Shown piece after piece: positions 29,330 through 45,442 of a stretch of 64,000 bases of DNA (within the stretch, counting starts at the first letter, position 1; every line of letters begins with the position of its first letter). The stretch spans positions 992,001-1,056,000 of the forward strand of contig NZ_JIAI01000001.1 in the NCBI RefSeq assembly GCF_000620785.1, written 5' to 3'. The stretch is from Actinospineispora acaciae DSM 45401 (lineage in GTDB: Bacteria; Actinomycetota; Actinomycetes; Mycobacteriales; Pseudonocardiaceae). Under the pieces are notes generated by a model. It was not told where the DNA came from. It did not search any database and was given only the letters and a program-made list of their open reading frames with translations. The position numbers and the translations under genes are program-made.

Positions 29330-30138
29330 CCCGTAGTCTGCTTGCGGCCGTGGCCGAGGGTGTCACCACCGTCGAGCTGGGGCAGCCGCTGTTCACCGGG
29401 ATGCCCTGCTCGCCCAACCATCCCGGGTTCCGGATGTCCCTGTCACGCCGGCACGGCGACGCGGTCCGGCCCGACGGCGGCTCGGCGGCCAGCGAGGTCC
29501 TGATCACCGGCGGGCACGTGGGAACGCACATCGACGCGCTCGCGCACGTCAGCCACGACGGGCTGCTGCACGGCGGGCTCGACGCGGCGCAGGCGCAGCG
29601 CGGCGGGAGGTTCAGCGAGCACGGCGCGGAGCGGATCCCGCCGATCGTCACCCGGGGCGTGCTGCTGGACGTGGCCGCCGCGCGCGGCGTGGACGTGCTC
29701 GACCCCGGCTACGGCGTCACCGAGGCGGACCTGGCCGCCGCCTCGGAGCGGGCCGGGGTGGAGCCGGCGGCCGGTGACGTTGCGCTGGTCCGCACGGGCT
29801 GGGCACAACACTTCTCCGACGCCGCACGCTACCTCGGGCACGACTCCGGCGTCCCGGGCGTGACCGAGCCGGCCGCGCGCTGGCTGGCCGACCGGGGCGT
29901 GGTCGCGACCGGCGCGGACACCACCGCCTACGAGCAGATCCCGGCCGGGCAGGGCCACCGGGTGCTGCCCGTGCACCGGCTGCTGCTGGTGGAGCGCGGC
30001 ATCTACATCGTCGAGCACCTCGACCTGGAGGCCGCCGCCGGCCAGGGCCTCACCGAGTTCCTGTTCGTGCTGCTGCCGCTGCGGATCGTGGGCGGCACCG
30101 GGTCGCCGGTGCGCCCGATCGCGGTGCTCGGCGCATGA
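29326..30138 (+). CDS. Cyclase-family metal-dependent hydrolase (plus arm)
   Basis: 270-residue member of the cyclase/kynurenine-formamidase family with the classical metal motif: HVGTHIDALAHVSHDG contains HxGTHxDxxxH. Other conserved segments are TRGVLLDVAAARG, GDVALVRTGWAQHF, VATGADTTAYEQ and VLPVHRLLLVERGIYIVEHLDLE. The start is TTG within the lyase stop (TTGA) with GGAAGGGACC upstream. In this operon it may open a lactone, cyclic imide or N-formyl substrate feeding the CoA-transferase. It is more canonical than the other two cyclase genes in the window. Confidence 0.85.
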   Translation: MTRSLLAAVAEGVTTVELGQPLFTGMPCSPNHPGFRMSLSRRHGDAVRPDGGSAASEVLITGGHVGTHIDALAHVSHDGLLHGGLDAAQAQRGGRFSEHGAERIPPIVTRGVLLDVAAARGVDVLDPGYGVTEADLAAASERAGVEPAAGDVALVRTGWAQHFSDAARYLGHDSGVPGVTEPAARWLADRGVVATGADTTAYEQIPAGQGHRVLPVHRLLLVERGIYIVEHLDLEAAAGQGLTEFLFVLLPLRIVGGTGSPVRPIAVLGA

Positions 30139-31556
30139 CCCCGGCACAGCGGATCGGGGCGCTGGCCGCCGAGGTCGCGGCCGAGGGCCTGCCCGGCGAA
30201 CTGCGCGACGACCTGGCCGCCCGGGTGGTCGACCTGCTCGGCAACTGCCTGGCCGCGCTCGGTGAGAAGCCCGCCACCGCGGTCGCCGAGGTGACCCGGT
30301 CCTGGGGCGGTCACGGCGCGGCCACCGCGATCGGGTCGCCGGACCGGCTGCCCGCGCCGTCGGCCGCGCTGGTCAACGGCACGCTGGCGCACGCGCTGGA
30401 CTTCGACGACACCCACCTCCCCTCGGTGCTGCACCCGTCGGCGGCGGTCATCCCGGCGGCGCTGGCGGTCGCGGAGGCGGTCGGGGCGTCCGGGCCGGAG
30501 TTCCTGGACGCCGCCACCGTCGGCATCGAGGTCACCTGCCGGCTGGGCATGGCCGGCTACGACGAGCGCGGCGCCAACTCCGTGTTCTTCGACAGGGGCC
30601 AGCACGCGACGGCCATCTGCGGCACCGTGGGCGCCGCCGTCGCCGCCGGGATGCTGCGCGGCCTGGACGCGGACGGCATCACCTCCGCGATCGGCATCGC
30701 GTGCAGCATGGGCTCGGGCGTGATCGAGGCCAACCGGACCGGCGGCACCGTCAAGCGGGTGCACTGCGGCTGGGCCGCGCACGCCGGCGTGGTCGCCGCC
30801 GACCTGGCGCACGCCGGCCTGACCGGCCCCCCGACCGTGCTGGAGGGCAGGTTCGGGTTCCTGCGCGCGTTCTGCGGCGAGAACCACGACGTCGGCAGGG
30901 TCACCGACCGCCTCGGCGAGCACTGGGAGACCCCGGGCATCTTCTTCAAGCCGTACCCGTGCAACCACTTCACCCACGCCGGCATCGACGCCGCGCTGCG
31001 GCTGCGCGCCGCCGGCGTGAACCCCGACGACATCGTCGAGCTGACCCTCGGCGCCCCGGCACCGGTGCTGCACACCATCGGCGAGCCGCTGCCCGAGAAG
31101 CGCCGCCCGCGCTCCGGCTACCACGGCGCGTTCAGCGGCCCCTACACGGTCGCGGCGGCGCTGCTCGGCGGCGGCGGGCTCGGCGTGTTCCACCAGGACT
31201 TCACCGACGCCGCCGTGGCGGACCCGGCCAGGCTCGCGCTGGCCGACAAGGTCAGCTGCGTCGCCGACGAGCGGTGCACCCGGGAGTTCCCCCGCCAGTT
31301 CCCCGCCGTGCTCACCGCGCGCCTGCGCGACGGCCGCACCCTCACCGAGCGGGTCACGCACAACCGGGGCGGCCCCGCGCACCCGCTGTCCGAGCGGGAG
31401 CTGACCACCAAGTTCACCCTCAACGCGGAGCGCGCGCTGTCGAAAACGCACGCCGCCCGCGTTGCCGACGCGGCCTGGGGGCTGCGCACCGACCGCACCG
31501 TCGCGGATGTGACGGCGGAGCTCCATCCCGATCCGCCGCCCGGAAACACGAGGTGA
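30135..31556 (+). CDS. MmgE/PrpD-family protein (plus arm)
   Basis: 473-residue MmgE/PrpD protein. Active-site region: LVNGTLAHALDFDDTHLPSVLHPSAAVIPAALA read in pieces, where the DFDDTH motif is the family signature. Also present are VEVTCRLG-type text, VHCGWAAHAGVVAADLA and FKPYPCNHFTHAGIDAAL. It differs enough from the minus-arm paralogue (which has DEGNKHAGGHP at the same place) to suggest a different reaction. It overlaps the cyclase stop by four bases (ATGA) and is followed after nine bases by an MFS gene. Candidate activities are a hydratase/dehydratase or decarboxylase acting on a dicarboxylate. Confidence 0.87.
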   Translation: MTPAQRIGALAAEVAAEGLPGELRDDLAARVVDLLGNCLAALGEKPATAVAEVTRSWGGHGAATAIGSPDRLPAPSAALVNGTLAHALDFDDTHLPSVLHPSAAVIPAALAVAEAVGASGPEFLDAATVGIEVTCRLGMAGYDERGANSVFFDRGQHATAICGTVGAAVAAGMLRGLDADGITSAIGIACSMGSGVIEANRTGGTVKRVHCGWAAHAGVVAADLAHAGLTGPPTVLEGRFGFLRAFCGENHDVGRVTDRLGEHWETPGIFFKPYPCNHFTHAGIDAALRLRAAGVNPDDIVELTLGAPAPVLHTIGEPLPEKRRPRSGYHGAFSGPYTVAAALLGGGGLGVFHQDFTDAAVADPARLALADKVSCVADERCTREFPRQFPAVLTARLRDGRTLTERVTHNRGGPAHPLSERELTTKFTLNAERALSKTHAARVADAAWGLRTDRTVADVTAELHPDPPPGNTR

Positions 31557-31565
31557 GTAAGTAAC

Positions 31566-32864
31566 ATGCGGACCAATTTCCGATGGACAACGATAGCCCT
31601 GATCGTCGCCCTCATCGTGATCAACTACATTGACCGGAGCGCGGTGTCGTTCGCGGTCCGGCCGCTTTCCGAGGCATTCGGGCTCAACGCGGCCGCCTAC
31701 GGGGTCATCGGCGGCGTCTTCTCCATCGGATACATGGTCTTCGCGTTCCTGTCCGGGCCGTTGGTGGACCGTTTCGGCCCCCGCAACGTGCTGCTCGGTT
31801 CCATCCTGATCTGGTCGGTGGCCACCGCGCTGACCCCGCTGGCCGGCGGCTTCGCCGGGCTGCTGCTGGTGCGGATCCTGCTCGGCGCCGGCGAGGCACC
31901 GGGCTTCCCGGCGGCCACCCGGGTGGCCAGCCGCTGGCTGCCGGCCACCGAGCGCGGCAAGGCGCTCGCGCTGATCGGCGGCGTCGCGGTGTCCGGAAGC
32001 CTGCTCATCAGCGGGCCGATCATCACCCAGCTCATCCACGTGGCCGGCTGGCGCGGCATGTTCTGGATCCTGGCCGTCCTCGGGCTGGCGTGGGCGGGCG
32101 TCGCCTTCGCGCTGCTGCGCAACACCCCGGCCGAGCACCCGCGCTGTTCGCCGGAGGAACGGGCACACATCGCGGCCGGGCAGGCCGAGTCCGAGGGCAC
32201 CGCCCGCGAGGCGCGGGTGGACTGGCGCGCGATCCTGACCAACCGCAACCTGTGGATCACCGGGATCGGCTACTTCGCCTGGGGCTTCATGTTCTGGGGG
32301 TTCATGTACTGGCTGCCGGAGTTCCTGGCCAAGTCCTACCAGCTCAGCATCCGGCAGGTCGGCGCGTTCTCGGTGGCGCCGTGGGCCGCCGGCGTGGTCG
32401 GGGCGCTGCTCGGCGGCCTGCTCGTGGACCGGCTCTACGCCCGCTACCAGCGGGTCCGTACCAGATTCCTGATCATGGGAACGGCGCTGCTGCTCTCCGG
32501 GGCGTCGCTGATCCCGATCATGGTCTCGCCGTCGCTGACCACCGCGCTGGTCTCGATCTCGCTCGGGGTGGGACTGGGCTTCGTCACCGGCGGCATCTGG
32601 TGGGTGGCGGCCATCGACGCGGCCCCGACCCATCCCGGCGCGGCGGCCGGGTTCGCCGACGCCGCGTTCGCCTCGTCGGGCATCCTGGCGCCGGTCGTGA
32701 TGGGGTTCATCGTCCACAACACCGGCACCTTCGGCAGCGGGTTCGCGCTGATGAGCGCGCTCGCGGTGATCGGGGCGCTGGCCATGCTGCTGTTCACCAG
32801 GGAACCCGGCCACGGAGAAAGGCACGCCCCCGTCCCCATGACCGGAGACAGGGGCGCGTCGTGA
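31566..32864 (+). CDS. MFS transporter (ACS family), last gene of plus arm
   Basis: 432-residue permease, paralogous to the minus-arm MFS (19418). TM1 reads VINYIDRSAVSFAVRPL, the loop GPLVDRFGPRNVL, TM4 RILLGAGEAPGFPAATRVASRW, and the second half FVTGGIWWVAAIDAAP. The sequence and the operon position (last, after a PrpD gene) mirror the other arm, suggesting duplication of a PrpD-MFS unit or parallel recruitment. A GAGG-containing ribosome site lies about 13 bases before the ATG. Probable role: uptake of the acid entering the CoA-transferase branch. Confidence 0.9.
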   Translation: MRTNFRWTTIALIVALIVINYIDRSAVSFAVRPLSEAFGLNAAAYGVIGGVFSIGYMVFAFLSGPLVDRFGPRNVLLGSILIWSVATALTPLAGGFAGLLLVRILLGAGEAPGFPAATRVASRWLPATERGKALALIGGVAVSGSLLISGPIITQLIHVAGWRGMFWILAVLGLAWAGVAFALLRNTPAEHPRCSPEERAHIAAGQAESEGTAREARVDWRAILTNRNLWITGIGYFAWGFMFWGFMYWLPEFLAKSYQLSIRQVGAFSVAPWAAGVVGALLGGLLVDRLYARYQRVRTRFLIMGTALLLSGASLIPIMVSPSLTTALVSISLGVGLGFVTGGIWWVAAIDAAPTHPGAAAGFADAAFASSGILAPVVMGFIVHNTGTFGSGFALMSALAVIGALAMLLFTREPGHGERHAPVPMTGDRGAS

Positions 32865-34284: not shown

Positions 34285-35232
34285 CTACTTCAGCGCGAGC
34301 GCGTTGGCGGGCGAGCCGATGCCGCCCCGGGCGTGCAGCGGAGCGGCGGTGACCAGGAACTCGTGCACGCCGGTGTCCGCGCAGTCCTGGGCGAGGTCGG
34401 CCAGCCACCACAGCTCGCCGATCGCGAGCCCGAGCTGGCCGATCATGATCTGGTGCAGGAAGCCGAACGGCCACGCCTCCGGCTGTAGGTCCGGCGGCCA
34501 GACCTCCAGCGCCGGGTTGTCCGCCGCGACCGCGCTCAGGCCGCTGTCCCAGAGGTAGGCGGCCATCTCCTCGCTGTGCTCGATGCCCGCCGCGGTCAGC
34601 GTCTCCCTCGCGGCGAGGCGCTTGCGGGCCGGCGCGTCCTGCTCGACGTACCAGGCCAGGAAGCCGGTGTGCAGCAGCAGGATGTCGCCGGTGCGGTACT
34701 CGACGCCGGCGGCCTCGCGCGCCCGCTCCAGCTCGGCGACGGTGATGGCGTGGCTGGTGCCCGGCCGGTAGCCGGCCGGTGCCGTGCGGGCGATGTCCAG
34801 GAGCACGCCCCGGCCGGCGATGCCGCGCGCGGCCCAGTGCTCGATCGTGTTGCGCCGGCCGGCCCTGACGTCCTCGGTGCTCGCGCCGTTGTAGAACCGC
34901 CCGCTGTCGAACGCGATGTGCCCGAGCGAGTCCCACTGGCTGGTGGCCTGCGGGTAGAAGTTGTCGTGCACGTCGTCGAAGGTGCGGCCGGGGCGGGTTT
35001 CCAGGGTCGTGCGCCGGTCGACGCCCCTGTCGTACATCGGCGGCTCGATCAGGTTGAGCGGGGCGTTGAGCGAGAACACGGCCCCTCGCCGGACCAGCTG
35101 GGCGGCGGCGGCGATCCGCTCGGGGGTCTGCAGATTGATCGTCCCGACGCAGTCGTCGTCGCCGAACTGCCCCCATGCCGAGCGGGCTCCCCCGTCGGCG
35201 GCCGGGAGCTGGTCGTACTTCGGACGTGTCAC
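34285..35232 (-). CDS. Cyclase-family protein, divergent metal-site variant
   Basis: 315-residue protein of the long cyclase subfamily (start AWGQFGDDDCVGTINLQTPE). Where classical members have HxGTHxDxxxH, this one reads TSQWDSLGHIAFDSGRFYNG, so several metal ligands are missing or moved. The rest of the fold is preserved: GRGVLLDIAR, GDILLLHTGFLAWY, VAADNPALE and GFLHQIMIGQLGLAIGELWWL. It may bind the metal differently or catalyse without it. Start is GTG with GGAGG six bases upstream; a TTG two codons earlier abuts the ribosome site. It is divergent from the molybdoenzyme fusion with about 80 bp between them. Confidence 0.8.
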   Translation of the reverse strand: MTRPKYDQLPAADGGARSAWGQFGDDDCVGTINLQTPERIAAAAQLVRRGAVFSLNAPLNLIEPPMYDRGVDRRTTLETRPGRTFDDVHDNFYPQATSQWDSLGHIAFDSGRFYNGASTEDVRAGRRNTIEHWAARGIAGRGVLLDIARTAPAGYRPGTSHAITVAELERAREAAGVEYRTGDILLLHTGFLAWYVEQDAPARKRLAARETLTAAGIEHSEEMAAYLWDSGLSAVAADNPALEVWPPDLQPEAWPFGFLHQIMIGQLGLAIGELWWLADLAQDCADTGVHEFLVTAAPLHARGGIGSPANALALK

Positions 35233-35315
35233 GGTCAACCTCCGGGATAGGCGTCCGCCTTTTCTAGCAGCGAGCTCGACCTGTCGAATCGCCCGGGCCG
35301 GGGCATCATGGACGG

Positions 35316-38300
35316 ATGGGCCAACGTCGGGTGACCGGGTACTGCACGCTCTGCAAGTCCCACTGTGGGTCCGTCTCGGTGCTGGACGGCGACCGGCTGG
35401 TCGCGGTCGAGCCGTTGCCGGGGCACCCCACCGGCGGCGCGCTGTGCGCCAAGGGCCGGGCCATGCCGGAGCTGACCCACAGCCCCCGGCGCCTGACGAC
35501 GCCGATGAGGCGGACGAACCCGAAGGACGCCGACGACCCCGGCTGGGTGCCGATCGGCTGGGACGAGGCGCTCGACGAGATCGCCGCGCGGCTGGTCGCC
35601 ATCCGCGCCGAGAGCGGGCCCGAGGCGGTCGCCTTCTCGGTCACCACCTCCAGCGGCACGCCGATGGTCGACGGCACCGACCTGGTCAACCACTTCGTCC
35701 GCCACTTCGGCAGCCCGAACATCGTCTACGCCACCGAGATCTGCGGCTGGCACAAGAACTTCGCGCACGCGTTCACCTACGGCAAGGGCATCGGCACCCC
35801 CGACTACCGGGCCGCCGAGCTGATCATCCTGTGGGGCCACAACCCGGCGCGCACCTGGCTGACCTCGGCGACCGCCGTGGCCGAGGCCCGCCGCGACGGC
35901 GCGAAGGTGGTGGTCGTCGACCCGAAGCGCGGCGGCAGCGGCCAGCAGGCCGACCTGTGGGTGCGGATCAGGCCGGGCACGGACGGTGCGCTCGCCCTCG
36001 GCGCGATCCACCACATGATCTCCAGCGGCCGCTACGACGAGGAGTTCGTCCGGGCTTGGACGAACGCCCCGCTGCTGGTGGACACCGCCACCGGCGAGCT
36101 GGCCCGCGCCGGCGAGCACTACCTCGTGTGGGCCTCGGAGCCCAGGCCGTACGACACCCGCCGTCCGCTCGCCCGCCCGCACGACGTGGCGCTGCGCGGC
36201 GAGTTCACCCTGGCCGACGGGCGGACCGTGCGGCCGGTGTTCGACCTGCTCGCCGAGCACGTCGCGGAGTGGACGCCGGAGCGGGTCGCCGAGACCACCT
36301 GGATCGACCCCGCCGAGCTGGCCGACTTCTACGCGCTGCTCACCAAGCACCGGCGGGTCTCGTACTACTCCTGGACCGGGGTCGGCCAGCACACCAACGC
36401 GACCCAGACCGAGCGGGCGCTCGGCGTCCTCTACGCCCTGCTCGGGAGCTACGACCAGCCCGGCGGGCTGCGCTGGGTGAACAAGCAGCCGGCGAACCCG
36501 CTCGGCGCGTTCTCCATCCTGCCCAGGGCGGAGCGGGAGAAGGCGCTCGGCTTCCGGGAGATGCCGCTCGGGCCGCCGGTGCAGGGCCACGTGACGGCCC
36601 GCGACTTCCGCCGGGCGGTGCTGGACGGCGAGCCGTACCGGGTGCGGGCGATGGTCGGTTTCGGCGCGAACATGGTGGTCTCGCAGGGCGCGTCCGACGA
36701 GAACCGCAAGGCGCTGCGCGCGCTGGAGTTCCAGGTGCAGTGCGACATGTTCGAGAACCCGACGGCGAACACCGCCGACATCCTGCTGCCGGTCTGCGCC
36801 CCGCCGGAGCGGCCCGGGCTGATGATCGGTTTCGACGTCGGCGCCGAGGGCGAGGAGCTGGTGCAGCTGCGGGAGCGGATGATCCCGCCGGCCGGGGACT
36901 CCCGGTCCGACTACGACATCGTGTTCGCGCTGGCCCAGCGGCTGGGCATGTCGGAGGCGTTCTTCGGCGGTGACCTGGAGGCGGCCTGGAACCATCAGCT
37001 CGCGCCGCTCGGCCTCACCGTGGCGGACCTGCGCGCCAACCCCGGCGGCATCCGGGTGCCGATCGCGCAGCGCGACCGCAAGTACGCCGCGGAGGGTGCG
37101 GACGGCACCGTCGCGGGCTTCGCCACCGGCACCCGCCGGGTGGAGCTCTACTCCGAGCTGATGCGCGAGCACGGCCAGCCCGCGCTGCCGACGTTCACCC
37201 TGCCGGACCCGGTCACGCCCGATAACGCCGAGTTCCCCTACGTCATGACCACCGCGAAGAACGGCCACTACACGCACTCGTCGCTGCGCTCGCTGGCCTC
37301 GCTGCGCCGCCGCTCCCCCGACCCCTCGGTGGAGGTCAGCCCGGCGCTGGCGGCCGCGCGCGGGCTGGCCGAGGGCGACTGGGCCACGGTGCGCACCCCG
37401 GACGGGCAGGCCACGCTGCGGGTGCGGCTCAACGACGAGCTGCACGACCGGGTGGTGATCGCCGAGCACGGCTGGTGGGACGACTCGCCGCCGCCGGCCA
37501 CCCCGGGCATGACCGCGCTCGGCCGGCGCACCAGCAACATCAACGCCGCGCTGTCCGACCGGCGCCGCGACCCGATCAGCGGTTCGGTGCCGCTGCGCGG
37601 GGTGGCCTGCGACGTGCGCCGCGACGACGAGACCTCGGCCGGGAACTGGGCGGGCTGGCGCACGTTCCGGGTGGCGTCCCGGGAGCCGGTCGAGACCGGG
37701 GCGCTCGCGCTCACCCTGCGCCCGGAGGACGGCGGCCCGCTGCCGAGGTTCCGGCCCGGGCAGCACGTGCAGGTCCGCTCGCCGGAGATCGAGACCCAGC
37801 GGGCCTACTCACTGACCAACGACGGCGCGACCGCCGGCGCGCTGCGGATCGCGGTGAAGGACATCGGCGGGCGGATGTCCGGTCACCTGCACGGCACCGT
37901 CGACGGCAGGGTGGCGGACACCGTGGAGGTGAAGGCGCCGACGGGCACGTTCACTCCCCCGGTCGGCGGCGCCCGCACGGTGCTGTGCATCGGCGGCGGC
38001 ATCGGCGTGACGCCGTTCCTGGGGTATCTGGAGACGCTCGCCGCCGGCCTGCCGGCGCCACCGAGGGTGCGGCTGGTCTACACCCGCAGGGCCACGGACG
38101 AGCCCGCGCCCATCGCCACCAGGCTGGCCGAGCTGGCCGGGAAGATCCCGGGCGTGGAGCTGCACGAGCACCTCACGGGCGGCGCCGAGGGCCGGTTCAG
38201 CGCCTCGGACCTGCCGGAGGGGTTCCTCGCCAGCCGGCCGCTGGTCTACCTGTGCGGGCCCGCCGCGATGATGACCGAGCTGACCGACCAGCTCGTCGGC

Positions 38301-38621
38301 CTGGGCATCGACAGGTTCGACGTCTTCACCGAGGAGTTCTTCAGCGACATCGAGATCCCGGAGACGCTGCACCCGGCCACCGTCCGGTTCGCCCGCACCG
38401 GCCGCGAGCTGACCTGGACGCCGAAGGCCGGCACCCTGCTCGACGCCGCCGACGCGGCAGGCGTCCCGCTGGGCAGCGGTTGCCGCACCGGGGTGTGCGA
38501 GTCCTGCGTTGTGCGGGTGCGCGCCGGCGAGGTCGCGCACCTCTCGACCGTGGAGAACGAGCCCGGCAGCTGCCTGACCTGCCAGGCCATCCCGCTCACC
38601 GACCTGGTGCTGGAGGCCTGA
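35316..38621 (+). CDS. Molybdopterin oxidoreductase fused to NAD(P)H-flavin reductase and 2Fe-2S ferredoxin
   Basis: 1101-residue single-chain redox enzyme. Residues 1-60 hold a 4Fe-4S site (Cys10, 13, 17, 44). About 60-620 is a DMSO-reductase-family molybdopterin domain, in which Cys143 (EICGWHKNFAHAF) is the likely Mo ligand. About 625-735 is the cofactor-closing domain (VMTTAKNGHYTHSSLRS, HDRVVIAEHGWWDD). An FAD domain follows (RAYSLTND near 829), an NAD domain (CIGGGIGVTPFL near 892; VYLCGPAAMM) and a plant-type 2Fe-2S domain (CRTGVCESC at 1056-1064, last Cys near 1088). Electrons can thus flow between NAD(P)H and molybdenum in one polypeptide. The substrate is unknown. It ends base-to-base against the convergent GntR gene (TGATCA). 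Confidence 0.9.
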   Translation: MGQRRVTGYCTLCKSHCGSVSVLDGDRLVAVEPLPGHPTGGALCAKGRAMPELTHSPRRLTTPMRRTNPKDADDPGWVPIGWDEALDEIAARLVAIRAESGPEAVAFSVTTSSGTPMVDGTDLVNHFVRHFGSPNIVYATEICGWHKNFAHAFTYGKGIGTPDYRAAELIILWGHNPARTWLTSATAVAEARRDGAKVVVVDPKRGGSGQQADLWVRIRPGTDGALALGAIHHMISSGRYDEEFVRAWTNAPLLVDTATGELARAGEHYLVWASEPRPYDTRRPLARPHDVALRGEFTLADGRTVRPVFDLLAEHVAEWTPERVAETTWIDPAELADFYALLTKHRRVSYYSWTGVGQHTNATQTERALGVLYALLGSYDQPGGLRWVNKQPANPLGAFSILPRAEREKALGFREMPLGPPVQGHVTARDFRRAVLDGEPYRVRAMVGFGANMVVSQGASDENRKALRALEFQVQCDMFENPTANTADILLPVCAPPERPGLMIGFDVGAEGEELVQLRERMIPPAGDSRSDYDIVFALAQRLGMSEAFFGGDLEAAWNHQLAPLGLTVADLRANPGGIRVPIAQRDRKYAAEGADGTVAGFATGTRRVELYSELMREHGQPALPTFTLPDPVTPDNAEFPYVMTTAKNGHYTHSSLRSLASLRRRSPDPSVEVSPALAAARGLAEGDWATVRTPDGQATLRVRLNDELHDRVVIAEHGWWDDSPPPATPGMTALGRRTSNINAALSDRRRDPISGSVPLRGVACDVRRDDETSAGNWAGWRTFRVASREPVETGALALTLRPEDGGPLPRFRPGQHVQVRSPEIETQRAYSLTNDGATAGALRIAVKDIGGRMSGHLHGTVDGRVADTVEVKAPTGTFTPPVGGARTVLCIGGGIGVTPFLGYLETLAAGLPAPPRVRLVYTRRATDEPAPIATRLAELAGKIPGVELHEHLTGGAEGRFSASDLPEGFLASRPLVYLCGPAAMMTELTDQLVGLGIDRFDVFTEEFFSDIEIPETLHPATVRFARTGRELTWTPKAGTLLDAADAAGVPLGSGCRTGVCESCVVRVRAGEVAHLSTVENEPGSCLTCQAIPLTDLVLEA

Positions 38622-39353
38622 TCACGCGCCGCCGCTGGAGTCCTGGACCCGCTTGAGGGCGGCCTTGCGGGCGCCCTGGATGTGCGCGCTCGCGGCCCGC
38701 CTTGCCGCGGCCGGGTCGCCGGAGACGAGCGCGTCGAGGATCCGCTCGTGCTCCCTGCGGGAGTGCTGGAGCCGGCCGGGGATCTGCAGCGTCGTCTCCA
38801 TGCCCCTGGCCAGGATCTCCTGCAGCACCCCGAGCGTGCGGGTGAGGAACCGGTTGCCGGCGGCCTCCACGATCCGCATGTGGAACGCGGCGTCCAGCTC
38901 CTGCAGCCGCCTCCAGTCCACGTCGTCCTCGGCGCTGGCGGCCATCAGGGTGTCGTAGGCCTCGCGCACCCGGGCCAGCCGGTCGGCGTCCTGGTGCGAG
39001 GCGGCCCACGCCGCGGCCGGCAGCTCCAGCACCTCGCGCATGTCGAACAGCTCGGTCAGGCTCATCTCCTCGGCCAGCAGCGCCTGGCGCAGGGTGCGGG
39101 TGGTGGCCGGGTCGGCCACGAACACCCCGGAGCCGTGCCGGATCTCGACGTGCCCCTGCGCCTTCAGCGAGCGCAGCGCCTCACGCAGCGACGGGCGGCT
39201 GGTGCCCAGCATGGCGGCCAGCTCCCGCTCGGGCGGCAGCCGGTCGCCGGGGCGCAGCCGGTCGCTGGCGATGACCTCGAGGATGCGGCGCGCGATGAGG
39301 TCGGAGACGCTGCCCTGCCGTAGCGGCGCCCAGAGTTGCGGGTCCGAGCTCAC
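38622..39353 (-). CDS. GntR-family (FadR/FCD) regulator of the sulfolactate-type cluster
   Basis: 243-residue FadR-type regulator. Winged helix: VSDLIARRILEVIASDRLRPGDRLPPERELAAMLGTSRPSLREALRSLKAQG in pieces (residues 15-70), wing IRHGSGVFVA. FCD domain: LFDMREVLELPAAAWAA, DAAFHMRIVEAAGN with metal-type Asp/His, and a C-terminal HERILDALVSGDPAAARRAASAHI. Start GTG with GGAGG seven bases upstream. It is divergent from the SuyAB-like genes. Similar FadR-type sites lie in this divergent region and in front of the DUF3311/SSS operon, so all are probably its targets. The effector is likely sulfolactate or a relative, by context. Confidence 0.87.
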   Translation of the reverse strand: MSSDPQLWAPLRQGSVSDLIARRILEVIASDRLRPGDRLPPERELAAMLGTSRPSLREALRSLKAQGHVEIRHGSGVFVADPATTRTLRQALLAEEMSLTELFDMREVLELPAAAWAASHQDADRLARVREAYDTLMAASAEDDVDWRRLQELDAAFHMRIVEAAGNRFLTRTLGVLQEILARGMETTLQIPGRLQHSRREHERILDALVSGDPAAARRAASAHIQGARKAALKRVQDSSGGA

Positions 39354-39481: not shown

Positions 39482-39790
39482 ATGGCGGAGTCGCCCGACC
39501 AGCCCGGATTTCTCGCCCACCACGACGGCGACCTGGTCGCGGTGGCGGTCCGGGATCTGACCCCCGGCACCGTGCACGGCGGCTACCTGCGCGGGCCGCT
39601 GTCGGTGACCGTCGAGCTGCGTGACGAGGTCCCGCTGGGCCACAAGCTCGCGCTGGTCGACATCGCCGAAGGCCAGGACGTCGTCGAGTACGGCCAGCGG
39701 GTGGGCGTCGCGCTCAAGGACATCCCGCGCGGCGGCTACGTCCACGTCCACAACGTAAGGAGCGCACGGTGGCAGAACAGCGTCGCCTGA
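39482..39790 (+). CDS. suyA: SuyA-like small subunit (UxaA N-terminal SAF domain)
   Basis: 102-residue SAF-domain protein. In altronate/galactarate dehydratases this domain is the N-terminus of one chain; in (2R)-sulfolactate sulfo-lyase it is the separate small subunit SuyA. Visible features: LAHHDGDLVAVAVRDL, EVPLGHKLALVDIAEGQDVVEYGQRVGVA and PRGGYVHVHNV, the conserved end of the SAF domain. The last few residues run over the start of the next gene by 22 bases. Start: ATG with AAGGAGGGATCGG upstream. I prefer SuyA over altronate dehydratase because the cluster also has SlcC-, ComC- and TauE-like genes; the domain alone cannot separate the two. Confidence 0.75.
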   Translation: MAESPDQPGFLAHHDGDLVAVAVRDLTPGTVHGGYLRGPLSVTVELRDEVPLGHKLALVDIAEGQDVVEYGQRVGVALKDIPRGGYVHVHNVRSARWQNSVA

Positions 39791-40932
39791 CCGGGTACCG
39801 CCGGGAGAACGGCACCGTCGGCATCCGCAACCACACGGTGATCCTGCCGGTGGACGACCTGTCCAACGCCGCCGCCGAGGCCGTCGCGAAGGTGGTGCCG
39901 GGCACGCTGGCGCTGCCGCACGCCTACGGCCGGCTGCAGTTCGGCCCGGACCTGGACCTGACCTTCCGCACCCTGATCGGCACCGGCGCGAACCCGAACG
40001 TGGCGTCCGTGGTCGTGATCGGCATCGAGCCGAACTGGACCGACCGGGTCGTGGAGGGCATCGCCAAGTCCGGCAAGAAGGTCGCCGGCTTCTCCATCGA
40101 GCGCAACGGCGACCTGAGGACGATCGAGCGGGCGGCCCGGGTCGCGGCGCGTCACCTGCAGGACGACTCGGAGCGCCAGCGCGAGCCGGTGGAGCGCCAC
40201 GAGGTGATGCTCTCGATCAAGTGCGGCGAGTCGGACACCACCAGCGGGCTCGGCTCCTGCCCCACGACCGCCGAGGCGGTGGACCGCTGGGTGGATGCCG
40301 GCGGGACGGTGCTGTTCGGCGAGACCAGCGAGCTGACCGGCGGCGAGCACCTGATCGCGCAGCGGTGCGTCAACGACACCGTCCGGCAGCGCTTCCAGCG
40401 GATGTACGACGACTACATCGAGATGATCGAGCGCACCGGCGCGAACCTGCTCGGCTCGCAGCCCACGCAGGGCAACATCCGGGGCGGGCTGACCACCATC
40501 GAGGAGAAGGCGATGGGCAACATCGCCAAGACCGGCACCAAGCCGGTGATCGCCGCGCTGGAGGCCGCCGAGGCGCCCAGCTCGGGTCCGGGCCTGTACT
40601 TCATGGACACCTCGTCGGCCGCCGCCGAGTGCGTCACGCTGATGGCCGCCGCCGGCGCCGCGATCCACCTGTTCCCGACCGGCCAGGGCAACGTCATCGG
40701 CAACCCCATCGAGCCGGTGGTGAAGCTGACCGCCAACCCGATGACCGCCGAGACCATGTCCGAGCACATGGACCTGGACTGCTCGGGGCTGCTGCGCCGC
40801 GACTACGACCTGACCGCCGCGGGTGACCTGCTGATGGACGTCATCGACAGGACCGTCAACGGCCGGCTGACCTGCGCCGAGGTGCTGGGACACCGGGAGT
40901 TCGTGCTCACCCGGCTTTACCAGAGCGCCTGA
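39769..40932 (+). CDS. suyB: SuyB-like large subunit (UxaA C-terminal family)
   Basis: 387-residue catalytic subunit of the altronate/galactarate dehydratase superfamily, the size of SuyB of sulfolactate sulfo-lyase, which splits (R)-sulfolactate into pyruvate and sulfite. Conserved segments: LTGYRRENGTVGIRNHTVIL, LPHAYGRLQFG, VMLSIKCGESDTTSGLGSCP (cysteine-bearing metal region), GGTVLFGETSELTGGEHL, NIRGGLTTIEEKAMGNIAKTG in pieces and FPTGQGNVIGNPIEPVVKLTANP. The GTG start has AAGGAG upstream and lies inside the small-subunit gene. It shares one base with the next gene (TGATG). Confidence 0.78.
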   Translation: MAEQRRLTGYRRENGTVGIRNHTVILPVDDLSNAAAEAVAKVVPGTLALPHAYGRLQFGPDLDLTFRTLIGTGANPNVASVVVIGIEPNWTDRVVEGIAKSGKKVAGFSIERNGDLRTIERAARVAARHLQDDSERQREPVERHEVMLSIKCGESDTTSGLGSCPTTAEAVDRWVDAGGTVLFGETSELTGGEHLIAQRCVNDTVRQRFQRMYDDYIEMIERTGANLLGSQPTQGNIRGGLTTIEEKAMGNIAKTGTKPVIAALEAAEAPSSGPGLYFMDTSSAAAECVTLMAAAGAAIHLFPTGQGNVIGNPIEPVVKLTANPMTAETMSEHMDLDCSGLLRRDYDLTAAGDLLMDVIDRTVNGRLTCAEVLGHREFVLTRLYQSA

Positions 40933-41884
40933 TGCGGCTCGACCCGGTGGACGTGATCGTCACCGAGGAGGTGTGGGGCGAGCCGTTCGAGGAGCTGGCC
41001 ACCAGGCGGTCGGTGCTGCGCCGGCCGGCCGCCTGGTCCTCCCGCGACGACCTCGCCGCGCTCGTCTCCCGTGCTCGCGCTTTGGTGGTGCGCAACCGCA
41101 CCCGGGTGGACCGCGAGCTGCTGGCCGCCGCGCCCGAGCTGCGCATCGTGGCTCGGGCCGGGGTCGGGCTGGACAACATCGACCTCGCCGAGGCGGCCGC
41201 GCGCCGGGTGGTGGTGACCGCCCCGCTGGGCGCGAACGCGGTCAGCGTCGCCGAGCACACGGTGGGCCTGGCGCTGGCGCTGGCCCGTAAGACGCTCGCG
41301 CTGGACGCGGGGTGTCGTTCCGGACGGTGGGACCGCGAGCCGGGCACCGAGCTGGCCGGCCGCACCTGGGGGCTGCTCGGGGCGGGCGCGACCGCGCGTG
41401 CCTGCGGGCGGCTGGGCGGGGCGCTCGGCATGTCCGTGCTGGCGTACGACCCGTACCTCGACCCGGCGCACCCGGACCTGGTGGCGGCCGGCATCGAGCT
41501 GGCACCGCTGGTGGAGGTGGCGGCGCGGGCGGACGTGCTGTCCTGCCACCTGCCCGCGACCGAGCAGACCGCGGGCATGGTCGACGCCCTGCTGTTGGCG
41601 CGGATGCGCCCGTCCGCGCTGCTGATCAACGTCGGCCGCGGCGAGGTGGTCGACGAGGACGCGCTCGCCGATGCCCTGGAGTCGGGCGCGCTGGCCGGCG
41701 CGGCGCTGGACGTGCGTGTCGACGAACCACCCCGCCCCGGCGGCTGGAAGGGCTCCCGAACGTGATCCTCACCCCGCATGTCGCGGGCATCACGGAGGAG
41801 AGCCAGCGGCGCATCCTGCGGGTGCTCGCCGACGACATCGACGCCGTGCTGGACGGCCGCCCGCCCGCGAGCGCCGTCACGTGA
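40932..41884 (+). pseudogene. slcC: SlcC-like D-2-hydroxyacid dehydrogenase, frameshifted
   Basis: A 2-hydroxyacid dehydrogenase of the SerA/SlcC family ((S)-sulfolactate dehydrogenase by context). The first 277 codons read normally: GVGLDNIDLAEAA, LLGAGATARACGRLG (dinucleotide site, with the last glycine replaced) and INVGRGEVVDEDAL with the catalytic Arg. After DEPPRPGG the frame runs into a stop at 41763. In the frame one base back, from 41744, it continues LEGLPNVILTPHVAGITEESQ to the expected end at 41884. One base has therefore been lost near 41744, and the product lacks the catalytic His of LTPH. The surrounding C/G runs make a sequencing error possible. Confidence 0.82.
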
Positions 41885-42909
41885 AGCTCACCGTCTCGCG
41901 GGCGCGAACCCTCGCCGCCGAGCTGCTCGCCGCCGCCGGCATGCCGGCCGACCGCGCCGCCAGCAGCGCCCGCTGCATCGTGATGGCCGACGTGTGGGGC
42001 ATCGCCTCGCACGGCCTGCTGCGGCTGCCGTACTACCTGCGGCGCACCCTGGCCGGCGGCTACCCGCCGGACGCCGACCTGACCACCGTCGACGACACCG
42101 GGCCGCTGGTCGCGCTGGACGGCGGCGGCGGGCTCGGGCACTGGCAGCTGTGGCGGGCCGCCGAGCTGGCCTCGGCGCGGTGCGAGCGGTACGGGGTCGC
42201 GGCGGTGAGCGTGGCCAACTCGGGTCACTGCGGCGCGCTGGGCCTGTACACGGTTCCCGGCATCGAGGCCGGTCAGCTCACGCTGGCGTTCTCCAACGGC
42301 CCTGCCGTGATGCCGGCCTGGGGCGCGGCCGGCCCGCTGCTGTCCACCTCGCCGCTGGCCGCCGGGATCCCGGCCCGGCCGCGCCCGGCCATCGTGGACA
42401 TGGCCACCAGCACGGTGGCCCGGGGCAAGATCGCGGCACACGCGAAGAACGGGACGGAGCTGCCGCCGGGCTGGGCGCTGGACCGCGACGGCCGTCCCAC
42501 GGTGGATCCGCAGGAGGCCCTGCGCGGGCTGCTGGCCCCGCTGGGCGGCGCCAAGGGGTTCGCGCTGGCCCTGCTGGTGGAGGCGCTCGCCGGTGGGCTG
42601 GCCGGGCCGCACCTGTCGGCGGACGTGGCGGACATGTTCGCCGAGTCGGACGAACGGCGCCCGCAGCGGATCGGGCACCTGCTGGTCGCGCTCGACGCCG
42701 GCCGGCTCGACGCTCGGGACCGCCTGGACAGGCTCGCGCGCTCGGTCACCGACAGCGGCGGCCGGCTGCCCGGAGCCCGTCGCCCGCTGCCGTCCGAGGT
42801 GGACGAATCGGCGGCGCTGCCCGTCGATGAAGGAACACTGCGCGAGCTGGCAGACTGGTCACGGCGCCTGGGTGTCGCGTCAGGAACCCAGCGCGGTGGC
42901 GAGGCCTGA
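41881..42909 (+). CDS. comC: ComC-like dehydrogenase (malate/L-lactate dehydrogenase family)
   Basis: 342-residue NAD(P)-dependent dehydrogenase of the unusual malate/L-lactate/sulfolactate family, which is not of Rossmann type. Hallmarks: ADVWGIASHGLLRLPYYLRR (the conserved SHG segment), GHWQLWRAAELAS, VSVANSGHCGALGLYT (catalytic His region), STSPLAAGIPARPRPAIVDMATSTVARGKI in pieces, and LGGAKGFALALLVEALAG. ComC converts (R)-sulfolactate and sulfopyruvate, and with SlcC it racemises sulfolactate for the SuyAB lyase. The GTG start overlaps the end of the broken slcC frame (GTGA). The last 30 bases overlap the convergent TauE-like gene. Confidence 0.8.
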   Translation: MKLTVSRARTLAAELLAAAGMPADRAASSARCIVMADVWGIASHGLLRLPYYLRRTLAGGYPPDADLTTVDDTGPLVALDGGGGLGHWQLWRAAELASARCERYGVAAVSVANSGHCGALGLYTVPGIEAGQLTLAFSNGPAVMPAWGAAGPLLSTSPLAAGIPARPRPAIVDMATSTVARGKIAAHAKNGTELPPGWALDRDGRPTVDPQEALRGLLAPLGGAKGFALALLVEALAGGLAGPHLSADVADMFAESDERRPQRIGHLLVALDAGRLDARDRLDRLARSVTDSGGRLPGARRPLPSEVDESAALPVDEGTLRELADWSRRLGVASGTQRGGEA

Positions 42910-43605
42910 TACGACCACGAGCACCACGACAGTGAGCCGGAACGCCCGCCCGGACAGCCGCCGCGCGATCTGACCGCCGACCAGGTTCCCCGCCACCGCC
43001 GCCACCAGGAACATCGGCAGCGCCGGCCAGAGCACCCCGAGCGGGATCTGCCCACGCACCCCCAGGATCGCCAGCGACAGCGCGCAGGTCACCACGAAGT
43101 AGCCGGCCAGGTCCGCGATGAACGTGGCCGGCGGGACGCGGGCGCGCGCCAGCAGCACGGCGGCCGGCGGCCCGTTGAGCGAGGTGGTGGTGGACAGGTA
43201 GCCGCCGGTCAGCCCGGTCACCGCGATCAGCGCGGGCCCGGGCCGCTTCGGCCGGCCACCGTCGATGAACGCCAGCCGGATCCCGGCCAGCGCGACCAGC
43301 ACGCCGGCAGCGGGCTTGAGCACGTGCGGCGGGATCATGCCCACGGTGACGGCGCCGAGCCAGGCCCCGGGCACGCTGCCCGCCACCAGCAGCGCCACCC
43401 GGCGGACGTCCACGTGCCGGTGAGACCGGCAGAGCACGCCCGTCCTGGTGACCAGCGTCGCGGCCAGGTTGACCACCACGACCTCGGGCACCGGCAGGCC
43501 CACCAGCAACAGCAGCGGGGTGGTCAGCAGCGCCGCGCCGAACCCGGTGGCGCCACCGAGGATCGCGGCGAACCCGACGGCGGCGACGGCAAGGCCGAGG
43601 ACCAC
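42880..43605 (-). CDS. TauE/SafE-family membrane exporter (sulfite/organosulfonate type)
   Basis: 241-residue membrane protein with about eight hydrophobic segments. Family motif: GFAAILGGATGFGAALLTTPLLLLVGLP near the N-terminus, then VVVVNLAATLVTRTGVL, and a second-half repeat GLTGGYLSTTTSLNGPPAAVLL. TauE/SafE proteins are proposed exporters of sulfite or sulfonates. Next to a SuyAB-like lyase, which releases sulfite, it is the obvious detoxification partner. Start GTG with a GGGAG-type ribosome site, three bases after the symporter stop, so it is the last gene of the DUF3311-symporter operon on the minus strand. Confidence 0.84.
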   Translation of the reverse strand: MVLGLAVAAVGFAAILGGATGFGAALLTTPLLLLVGLPVPEVVVVNLAATLVTRTGVLCRSHRHVDVRRVALLVAGSVPGAWLGAVTVGMIPPHVLKPAAGVLVALAGIRLAFIDGGRPKRPGPALIAVTGLTGGYLSTTTSLNGPPAAVLLARARVPPATFIADLAGYFVVTCALSLAILGVRGQIPLGVLWPALPMFLVAAVAGNLVGGQIARRLSGRAFRLTVVVLVVVSGLATALGS

Positions 43606-43608
43606 TCC

Positions 43609-45129
43609 CTACGAGGCCCGGGCCATCGAGGCCTCGGCCGGCCGCCGCTCGGCCCGCGCCGTCTCCGCCGCGATCTCGGCCACCGTCCGCGACAACGGCT
43701 GCGTCGTGCCCGAGGGCGCCGTCACCAAGCTGACCACCACGAACACCACCGCGTTGAGGCCCAGCGCGATCAGCCCGGCGTTCACCCCGCCCACCGGGTC
43801 GTGCCCGGTCAGCATCAGCGCGCCGCACACCACCCAGCCGGTGAGCAGCCCGGCGAGCATGCCCTGCTTGGTGGCCCGGGTCCAGAACAGCCCGCCGACC
43901 ACGATCCCGGGGAACAGTTGGGCGATGAACGCGTACGCCACCAGCAGCACGCTCACGATCAACGCGGGCGCGGCCAGCGTGAGCGCCAGCGCGACCCCGG
44001 TCAGCGGAAACACCAGCGCCCTGGTCAGCCAGAACACCGTCCGGTCGGTGGTGGCCGGGCGGATCGCCTGCACCACGTTGCGGGACAGCAGGCTGGCCGA
44101 GGTCATCACGATCGGCCCGGCCGGCACGATAGCCGAGAGCATGCCGGCCACCACGAACAGCACCAGCGCCCAGTCCGGGAAGATCGACTTCATGATGTGC
44201 ATGACCACGTCGTTGCCGGCCAGCCCGGTGCCCAGCGCGATCACCGCGGCGAACCCGACGACCAGCACCGCCACCTTCACCAACTGGTAGAACGGCATGA
44301 ACACGGCCTGGCGCTTGAGCGCTCGCGGGCTGGTCGCGGTGAACGCGGTGCCGAACCACTGCGGCCACATCCACTGCCCCAGCCCGGTCATGACCACCGT
44401 GGTGATCATCCAGGTCGGCCCCATGTCGCGCGCGGTCTGCGAGGGCAGCTCGAAGTAGTGCGGGATCTTCGCGGTGAACGCCGCATACATCTCACCGAAC
44501 CCGCCGAAGTAGTGCAGCGGCACCGTGACGAACACCGCCGCCACCGCCGCGAACATCAGCAGGTCCTTGACCACCGACTGGATCGCGTTGCCCCGGATCC
44601 CGCCGATGAACACCGCCGCCGCCAGCACCACGAACCCCAGGATATTGCCCATCACCGGCGAGATCGCGTCGCCGCCGATCACCTTGAAGATCGCGGACAG
44701 CCCCACGATGTTGAGGTCGATGTACGCGATCATGATCAGCGCGGTGCTCGCCGCCACGAAGATGCCCAGCCACCTGCTGTCGTAGCGGTGCGCCACGAAG
44801 TCCGCCTGCGTGACGTGGCCGTACTTCTTGCCCAGCACCCAGATGCACGGCAGCACCAGGAAACCGACGGCGTAGGCGACGTCGTTCTGGGCCACGTTGT
44901 AGAAGCCGGCCGCGCCCTTCGTGTAGGAGTAGCCGGCCAGCCCCTGGAAGGTGAACGCCGTGTAGATCTCGCTGCCGAGCAGGAACCACAGCAGCACCGA
45001 CCCCATCCCCCGGTGATGGACCAGCCAGCCCTCCAGGCTGTCGTTCTTGGTCCGCCCGGCCAGCCCGCCGAGCACCAGGATCACGAAGGTCAGCCCGAGC
45101 CCGACCAGCAGCACCACCAGCGCGCTCAT
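43609..45129 (-). CDS. Sodium:solute symporter family transporter (SSS)
   Basis: 506-residue SSS-family permease with about 13 TMs, similar in layout to pantothenate/proline-type symporters that pair with DUF3311 proteins. Segments: GSEIYTAFTFQGLAGYSYTKGAAGFYNVAQN in pieces (TM2 substrate region), WVLGKKYGHVTQADFVAHRYDS, AYIDLNIVGLSAIF, GGIRGNAIQSVVKDLLM and SAIVPAGPIVMTSASLLSRNV (Na+ site region). The start overlaps the DUF3311 stop (ATGA). A FadR-like operator in the shared promoter resembles the one before the lyase operon, so import of sulfolactate or a related acid is likely but unproven. Confidence 0.86.
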   Translation of the reverse strand: MSALVVLLVGLGLTFVILVLGGLAGRTKNDSLEGWLVHHRGMGSVLLWFLLGSEIYTAFTFQGLAGYSYTKGAAGFYNVAQNDVAYAVGFLVLPCIWVLGKKYGHVTQADFVAHRYDSRWLGIFVAASTALIMIAYIDLNIVGLSAIFKVIGGDAISPVMGNILGFVVLAAAVFIGGIRGNAIQSVVKDLLMFAAVAAVFVTVPLHYFGGFGEMYAAFTAKIPHYFELPSQTARDMGPTWMITTVVMTGLGQWMWPQWFGTAFTATSPRALKRQAVFMPFYQLVKVAVLVVGFAAVIALGTGLAGNDVVMHIMKSIFPDWALVLFVVAGMLSAIVPAGPIVMTSASLLSRNVVQAIRPATTDRTVFWLTRALVFPLTGVALALTLAAPALIVSVLLVAYAFIAQLFPGIVVGGLFWTRATKQGMLAGLLTGWVVCGALMLTGHDPVGGVNAGLIALGLNAVVFVVVSLVTAPSGTTQPLSRTVAEIAAETARAERRPAEASMARAS

Positions 45130-45356
45130 GCGTCGTCCTCGGTCGTCCGCAACAGGACCCACTTGTCGTAGAGGTAGACGACCCCGATCAGCGCCGGCGC
45201 CAGGAACGGCATCAGGGTGAACCAGAACAGCATCTCGGGCATCCCGGCGATCCGTCCGGCCCCGTCGTTGAAGAACACCGGCGGCACGCACGTGTACAGG
45301 ACGATCATGGCGACGACGAGCGCCAGCCAGGCCAGCAGGACTCTCCGGTGAGCCAT
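45126..45356 (-). CDS. DUF3311-type small membrane protein, symporter partner
   Basis: 76-residue protein with two hydrophobic segments (VLLAWLALVVAMIVLYTCV and MPFLAPALIGVVYLYDKWV) separated by a short loop with FFNDGAGRIAGMPEMLFWF. The layout and the location directly before an SSS symporter with an ATGA overlap fit DUF3311 proteins, which are usually encoded just upstream of such transporters and are thought to assist them. A weak GGGG ribosome site precedes the ATG. Confidence 0.8.
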   Translation of the reverse strand: MAHRRVLLAWLALVVAMIVLYTCVPPVFFNDGAGRIAGMPEMLFWFTLMPFLAPALIGVVYLYDKWVLLRTTEDDA

Positions 45357-45388
45357 CGGTTACCCCAGTCTGTGACGTCAGGTGGACG

Positions 45389-45442
45389 GAGGTCAGACCT
45401 CTTGTCACCGGGACGCTATCGGCTCCGAAACGTTCGGGTCAA
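45389..45442 (-). promoter_or_regulatory. DUF3311/symporter promoter with FadR-like operator
   Basis: On the minus strand TTGACC (45442-45437), 18 bp, TAGCGT (45418-45413) is a good vegetative promoter. Downstream lies GAGGTC-A-GACCTC (45389-45401), a perfect 13-bp palindrome that contains GGTCAGACCTCT, nearly the same as GGTAAGACCTCT at the SuyAB-like promoter. The geometry (operator just after the start of transcription) is also the same, supporting control by the GntR protein at 38622. Confidence 0.6.

Follow-up and report, generated by a model that had tools for sequence, protein, structure and literature searches.

The stretch of DNA analysed here (the window) comprises 64,000 nucleotides of Actinospineispora acaciae DSM 45401 (contig NZ_JIAI01000001.1, positions 992,001 to 1,056,000 of the forward strand). 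The gene under study encodes a molybdenum (Mo) oxidoreductase in which a catalytic part of the dimethyl sulfoxide (DMSO) reductase family is followed, within one chain, by a flavin, NAD and 2Fe-2S reductase part. Its open reading frame (ORF) contained zero internal stops and had a third-position GC content (GC3) of 0.98, a strongly coding composition; a start at 35331 was favoured by a codon-based gene caller. The ORF and its features are as follows.

35316..38621, + strand: ORF of the single-chain Mo oxidoreductase, ATG start, TGA stop included, 1101 amino acids (ORF list and translation)
35331..35480, + strand: N-terminal 4Fe-4S domain with Cys10, Cys13, Cys17, Cys44 and Lys46 (Pfam PF04879, Molybdop_Fe4S4, residues 6-55)
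35490..36938, + strand: molybdopterin oxidoreductase catalytic domain (Pfam PF00384, residues 59-541, E 8.7e-40)
35742..35744, + strand: codon of Cys143, which probably ligates Mo; most fused members have it within the motif E-x-C-(G/N)-W-H-K (role assigned via reference-enzyme alignment)
37242..37604, + strand: molybdopterin dinucleotide binding domain (Pfam PF01568, Molydop_binding, residues 643-763)
37746..37952, + strand: flavin domain with motif RAYSL (Pfam PF00970, FAD_binding_6, residues 811-879)
37989..38279, + strand: NAD(P) domain with motifs GGIGVTPF and CGP (Pfam PF00175, NAD_binding_1, residues 892-988)
38421..38594, + strand: C-terminal plant-type 2Fe-2S domain with Cys1056, Cys1061, Cys1064 and Cys1089 (Pfam PF00111, Fer2, residues 1036-1093)

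The Fe4S4, Molybdopterin and Molydop_binding domains occurred in that order and all above their Pfam cut-offs, which places the catalytic part in the DMSO reductase family. The flavin, NAD and C-terminal 2Fe-2S domains followed in the order of a phthalate dioxygenase reductase (PDR)-type module, as judged by Pfam and by an end-to-end match of residues 780-1085 to phthalate dioxygenase reductase 2pia (E 2.3e-21). The intact ORF and the Pfam order bore out the original prediction, which had described one 1101-residue protein running from a DMSO-reductase-family domain with a 4Fe-4S site into flavin adenine dinucleotide (FAD), NAD and 2Fe-2S domains. Because the first cluster cysteine is residue 10 and leaves no space for an export signal, the protein is probably cytosolic.

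Among the best 25 NCBIfam matches, to which that comparison was confined, no cut-off was reached by the Mo oxidoreductase. The best catalytic match was formate dehydrogenase alpha (TIGR01591; 220.7 bits against a cut-off of 666); the PhsA model NF012032 gave 176.2 bits (cut-off 694) and the NasC equivalog 135.4 bits (cut-off 1100). The top PDB sequence match, polysulfide/thiosulfate reductase 2vpw (E 5.3e-51), lay over the Mo domains, and residues 782-1079 matched the reductase part of the self-sufficient P450s 6laa and 6kbh. For the reductase part the best NCBIfam match was flavohemoprotein (110.5 bits against a cut-off of 432). Flavohemoprotein is an FAD protein, and PDR-type modules carry flavin mononucleotide (FMN) as their flavin and usually draw electrons from NAD(P)H; the reductase sequence was nearest to the flavohemoprotein module, a likeness compatible with either FMN or FAD.

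An AlphaFold model (29 sequences) had a mean pLDDT of 72 and a pTM of 0.72. When residues 10-770 were compared by Foldseek/VIA-align, acetylene hydratase 2e7z came first (Z 26.5, root-mean-square deviation 3.3 over 631 residues, 26% identity), tied with perchlorate reductase 5ch7 (Z 26.0). All 50 VIA-align entries listed (Z 20.6 to 26.5) were DMSO-reductase-family enzymes, NAD-linked formate dehydrogenases among them. The listed alignments, filled by the Mo domain, ended by model residue 888, and the reductase part was judged via sequence. In this predicted structure the match supports the fold and says nothing of function; the Cys143-Mo geometry was not visible in the model because the cofactor loops (140-160 and 1051-1097) had pLDDT < 50.

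Full-length fused relatives were counted in overlapping genome samples of the host's family, order and class and of one genus. They were present in 9 of 150 genomes of the family and 4/298 of the order (own genome counted in both), in 1/345 of the class (the own genome) and in 16 of the 80 genomes of the genus, where one copy has an interrupted frame. Identity to the window protein was 72-76% in Sciscionella, Amycolatopsis anabasis and Saccharopolyspora rosea, and 46-48% in Streptomyces. A plasmid search returned 2007 matching records, 26 of which covered at least 80% of the query at one place (38.6-46.0% identity); hosts included Rhodococcus opacus, Paraburkholderia, Cupriavidus, Mesorhizobium, Agrobacterium, Phaeobacter, Sphingobium, Enterobacter and Klebsiella, and the matches included two Variovorax records with split genes. 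None of the 44 phage records with any match covered 80% of the query. Interrupted reading frames were seen in L041/L093 (Amycolatopsis anabasis, near query residue 984), L114 (Mesorhizobium) and L120 (Caballeronia), and several other Klebsiella plasmid records matched only from query residue 240 or 319 onward. Catalytic-only relatives of about 730-800 residues occurred too; two of these (L055, L056) formed a deep branch, with genes for a GntR-family protein and an NMT1-like binding protein beside them.

A FastTree phylogeny with midpoint root was built from 70 catalytic parts (50 family members and 20 references or outgroups, SoeA not among the references). Near-duplicate family members (chosen by hand), L120 (in two pieces), L127 and L129 were left out, as were the partial copies L021-L023; L041/L093 were left out of the protein alignments, and the tree retained L066, the same copy, because its catalytic part is intact. 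The 50 family members formed one clade (support 0.999) that excluded the nitrate reductase (NasA/NasC/NapA), formate dehydrogenase, PhsA, DmsA and TtrA references. Inside it all 37 fused proteins, from Actinomycetota and Proteobacteria, formed a single clade (support 0.953), and the window protein grouped with the four close relatives used (support 1.0). No deeper branching order is claimed because the node joining the fused and Variovorax forms had a support of 0.097.

In the alignment Cys10, Cys13, Cys17, Cys44, Lys46 and Cys143 were kept in 50/50 family members, in keeping with the earlier suggestion of Cys143 as the probable Mo ligand. By analogy with roles known from the DMSO reductase family in general, Cys143 would bind Mo and Lys46 would bridge the cluster and the cofactor. 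Around the ligand, Glu141 was present in 48/50 members, Trp or Phe at 145 in all 50 and His146 in 36 (Gly in 12, Gln in 2), and position 144, directly after Cys143, was Gly, Asn, Ser or Thr in 50/50 (Thr in one). In the reductase part G895, I896, G897, T899, P900, F901 and C980, together with Cys1056, Cys1061, Cys1064 and Cys1089 of the 2Fe-2S domain, were invariant in 42 fused sequences.

These results bear on two other identities. A single-chain NADH assimilatory nitrate reductase would accord with known assimilatory enzymes, which pair a DMSO-reductase-family subunit with an FAD/NADH partner, and the depositor of one plasmid copy named it nasC. This identity is nonetheless highly improbable. 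In the tree against assimilatory nitrate reductases that had been proposed as a check, the window protein fell outside the NasA, NasC-type and NapA references; it scored 135 against 1100 bits for NasC; and the residue after the ligand was Met in three of the four nitrate reductase references (the NasC-like protein of this genome, NapA and Erwinia NasA; the fourth, a Deinococcus protein annotated as nitrate reductase, has Thr) and in 0/50 family members. Elsewhere the own genome carries a nasC-like gene with nirB-like neighbours, and a narG above cut-off (1580.1 against 1084). The nasC-like gene (L150, G000 C3 386000-404000) is full length; two nirB-like genes come after it in the same orientation, and over 829 residues the second of them shares 54% identity with an Erwinia NirB. 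The NasC cut-off is a strict test because this likely NasC, at 727.6 bits, misses 1100 too. The searches made turned up no instance of the case named as fatal to the original prediction, an assimilatory nitrate reductase already characterised and fused in this way. Nitrate reductase is ranked low on the tree, the motif, the model score and the occurrence of nasC-like/nirB-like and narG genes at other places in the genome.

The second is an NAD(P)+-reducing dehydrogenase, in which the chain would run in reverse and oxidise some substrate, for example formate, an N-heterocyclic acid or a compound of sulfur. The best NCBIfam catalytic match and the NAD-linked formate dehydrogenases among the structural relatives favour it, and because FNR-type modules can run in either direction, NAD+-dependent oxidation is conceivable. 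Such a direction is unlikely, given that PDR-type modules usually pass electrons from NAD(P)H and that 220.7 bits is far under the formate dehydrogenase cut-off. Formate dehydrogenases carry His directly after the Cys/Sec ligand, as in the FdnG and FDH3 references (Gln in Pantoea fdhF), against Gly, Asn, Ser or Thr in all 50 members here; formate dehydrogenase itself was rejected on this residue and on the model score.

Genes beside the fused relatives were counted by tblastn because initial gene calling had missed some (e.g., the OCD genes in L052 and L053); gaps run from one tblastn match to the next, and the loci lack independence, as several belong to one genus. In 25/44 fused loci the Mo gene seemed to share an operon with a gene for an OCD-type cyclic-imine reductase or an NADP-glutamate dehydrogenase. 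The OCD-type reductase was found on the same strand in 16 of the 44: directly downstream in 12, with gaps of 11-62 bases (L043, L049-L053, L096, L106, L112, L116, L122, L126). In two (L097, L105) it lay directly upstream and followed a proline-racemase-family gene; in another two (L113, L120) a transporter gene lay in between. In nine other loci (L094, L095, L098-L104) the next match was NADP-glutamate dehydrogenase, with gaps of 39-58 bases. Five downstream OCD proteins (L049, L112, L113, L116, L052) exceeded the cut-off of 322 bits for Delta1-pyrroline-2-carboxylate/Delta1-piperideine-2-carboxylate reductase, with scores of 375-422, and the L098 glutamate dehydrogenase passed its own model (679.7 against 536). 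A short-chain fatty acid transporter relative was present in 10/44 fused loci, and a homologue of one GntR regulator lay divergent and directly upstream in 16 of the 46 loci searched.

Some copies stood beside genes of other kinds. On the Rhodococcus opacus 1CP plasmid pR1CP1 (L112) the Mo-OCD-transporter operon was ~2.6 kb from proline dehydrogenase and pruA, a hint of proline-type chemistry; on the Sphingobium yanoikuyae plasmid pF1 (L117) the fused enzyme was near nitric-oxide reductase and truncated haemoglobin genes, a hint of nitrogen-oxide chemistry. On large Enterobacter and Klebsiella plasmids, full-length copies (L118, L119 and other enterobacterial matches) adjoined metal-efflux/metal-regulator genes. 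A detoxifying reductase of oxidised small molecules (N-oxides, S-oxides, chlorate or N-hydroxy compounds) with no fixed pathway would suit the scattered distribution, the plasmid copies and the metal-efflux or nitric-oxide-stress genes beside some of them. It is judged improbable, since the tight operons that include OCD or glutamate dehydrogenase speak for one defined metabolic step, at any rate in loci outside the window group.

The reading favoured here, at a probability of roughly 0.55, is a DMSO-reductase-family molybdoenzyme that is soluble and cytoplasmic, consists of one chain and depends on NAD(P)H, the substrate of the family being most likely a small N-containing organic acid; these odds rest mainly on domains, tree and operons. 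A single-chain NAD(P)H-linked Mo enzyme, as had been predicted, is well supported by the domains, the conserved ligands and the shared fusion clade. Electrons would pass from NAD(P)H, a notation that covers either nucleotide, to the flavin (probably FAD), from the flavin to the C-terminal 2Fe-2S cluster, from there to the N-terminal 4Fe-4S cluster and on to the Cys143-ligated Mo-bis(pyranopterin guanine dinucleotide) (Mo-bisPGD), where the small substrate would be reduced. Across the family the reduced product would be an imine or amino acid, completed by the partner imine reductase or glutamate dehydrogenase. We lean to a small N-containing acid because glutamate dehydrogenase and OCD-type reductases both work via imines or keto acids and ammonia; judging by the operons, this class may not hold for the window subgroup. 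A bolder form, rather unlikely, would make this a new self-sufficient molybdoenzyme class of aerobic catabolism, in which NAD(P)H serves to reduce an N-O bond (in an oxime, an N-hydroxy acid or a nitro acid) or an N-heteroaromatic acid to an alpha-imino acid and the product of the next gene (a cyclic-imine/imino-acid reductase, or else glutamate dehydrogenase) yields the amino acid; an imino acid product is suggested because OCD-type reductase and glutamate dehydrogenase replace each other beside the Mo gene.

Several observations weigh against the favoured reading. The NAD_binding_1 match was 21.8 bits against a Pfam cut-off of 22, i.e., 0.2 short, and the catalytic part also resembles formate dehydrogenase and the non-redox enzyme acetylene hydratase. 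Neither partner gene was found in 19/44 fused loci (L044 judged on 812 bases downstream), and the L105 upstream OCD reached only 200 against 417 and 166 against 322 bits. All five window-group loci, the closest of the relatives read, were without an OCD or glutamate dehydrogenase partner, and no gene of either kind was found among the scanned window neighbours; the substrate class may not carry over to this subgroup because the partner genes are absent there. In the own genome only three OCD relatives were found elsewhere (31-33% identity), and no close copy. The nasC name of the one plasmid record was weighed lightly. The earlier list of sulfite, an N-heterocycle or another substrate was guesswork: the operons of the distant relatives now suggest amino/imino-acid chemistry, an indication they do not give for the window subgroup.

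The split forms count on both sides. On two Variovorax plasmids (L127, L128) a catalytic-only relative was followed directly by a separate PDR/VanB-type oxidoreductase gene (316 amino acids in L128); in L127 the Mo part was annotated as two overlapping genes. The separate reductases aligned with window residues about 785-1083 (26-27% identity, E about 1e-10). The L128 catalytic part was 45% identical to that of the window protein and its reductase 26%, and for this reason the split form is not plainly the same enzyme. Across the whole family this partnership is not a fixed one, as 16/18 catalytic-only loci (five of the 18 spanning < 5.4 kb) showed no such reductase at E 1e-5; at E 1e-8, 0/18 catalytic-only or split loci gave a reductase match. 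Both Variovorax loci had dihydroorotase, dihydroorotate dehydrogenase, amidase/hydrolase and (orotate) phosphoribosyltransferase genes as neighbours, as in a pyrimidine-type catabolic cluster.

The genes beside the window copy are as follows.

34285..35238, - strand: cyclase-family protein (PF04199), upstream of the Mo gene and on the opposite strand; not seen beside close relatives
38622..39353, - strand: GntR/FCD regulator, convergent with the Mo gene (ends abut at 38621/38622) and divergent from the next operon
39482..42909, + strand: operon of a SAF protein, an altronate/galactarate dehydratase-like protein (GD_AH), a D-2-hydroxyacid dehydrogenase (2-Hacid_dh) and an Ldh_2 dehydrogenase

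The Mo gene has no co-directional partner directly beside it in the window and, as had been noted, stands alone between the cyclase-family gene and the convergent regulator. The downstream operon, which is probably separate from the Mo gene, presumably resembles one for sulfolactate degradation, a name given by analogy. A MctP-like symporter at 43609-45408 (197.9 against 625 bits) follows it, so that the sulfolactate- or other hydroxyacid-like set spans 39482-45408. On the other side (29350-32864) a second cyclase-family (PF04199) gene precedes MmgE/PrpD and MFS genes of the same strand, with which it may form a catabolic operon.

Adjacency to the GntR gene and the SAF/GD_AH/2-Hacid_dh/Ldh_2 operon, with 2vpw as the top PDB sequence match, could point to a sulfite- or sulfonate-linked enzyme acting with that operon, and the original prediction had raised sulfite and a sulfolactate-type regulator. 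This reading is very unlikely: the tie is to one genome, the Mo gene is convergent with the regulator, and the Ldh_2 neighbour, at 174.6 bits, falls short of the L-sulfolactate dehydrogenase cut-off of 500. GD_AH and Ldh_2 had no tblastn match near four close relatives (L039, L042, L092, L093) and were not found near L040 by clustering; the sulfite idea is weak because these neighbours were not seen beside close relatives. Genes around the window group were an amidase and an alpha-amylase (L042), a GH18 protein (L092), MerR and a histidine kinase (L041/L093), and an ABC ATPase directly upstream with an S58 peptidase downstream (L039/L040). They could not name a substrate because they differ from locus to locus.

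For the favoured NAD(P)H-dependent molybdoenzyme, drawing electrons straight from NAD(P)H in one chain would make it easier to express and assay; well-known DMSO-reductase-family enzymes mostly rely on separate electron-transfer partners. The fusion is common to a scattered but wide family. No description of this fusion was found in the open-licence papers searched (titles and abstract openings), a scope in which absence is weak evidence. In the more distant relatives the enzyme marks an operon common to Rhodococcus, Amycolatopsis, Paraburkholderia, Cupriavidus, Agrobacterium and Phaeobacter, likewise not found described in those papers, and the imine reductase and glutamate dehydrogenase linked to it offer a concrete clue to the substrate that can be put to the test.

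Among known systems, the two-component assimilatory nitrate reductase (NasA/NasC with an NADH-FAD partner) likewise couples a Mo-bisPGD 4Fe-4S catalytic part to NAD(P)H via a flavin, but does so in separate chains, with Cys-Met in three of the four references and in another clade. PhsA/PsrA thiosulfate/polysulfide reductases are alike in Mo-domain sequence (2vpw) and, in PhsA, in the Cys at the ligand position; their own FeS and membrane subunits are separate (PhsB and PhsC annotated), and the window protein scores 176 against 694 bits for PhsA. Acetylene hydratase 2e7z, the best structural match, has 727 residues without reductase domains and carries out a non-redox hydration. YcbX, like mARC, reduces N-oxygenated compounds, with NADH supplying the reduction by both. 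Mo-dependent reduction of N-oxygenated compounds by mARC is described in PMC10637980. Such chemistry is proposed here as a parallel only, mARC and YcbX being of the MOSC superfamily and not of the DMSO reductase family. Phthalate dioxygenase reductase and flavohemoprotein modules share the order of flavin, NAD and (PDR only) C-terminal 2Fe-2S, but their electrons go to Rieske oxygenases or haem and not to a Mo cofactor. The self-sufficient P450s 6laa and 6kbh, which we take to be of the CYP116B kind, also fuse a catalytic domain and a PDR-type reductase in one chain; their catalytic domain is a haem domain, and the analogy is one of architecture only.

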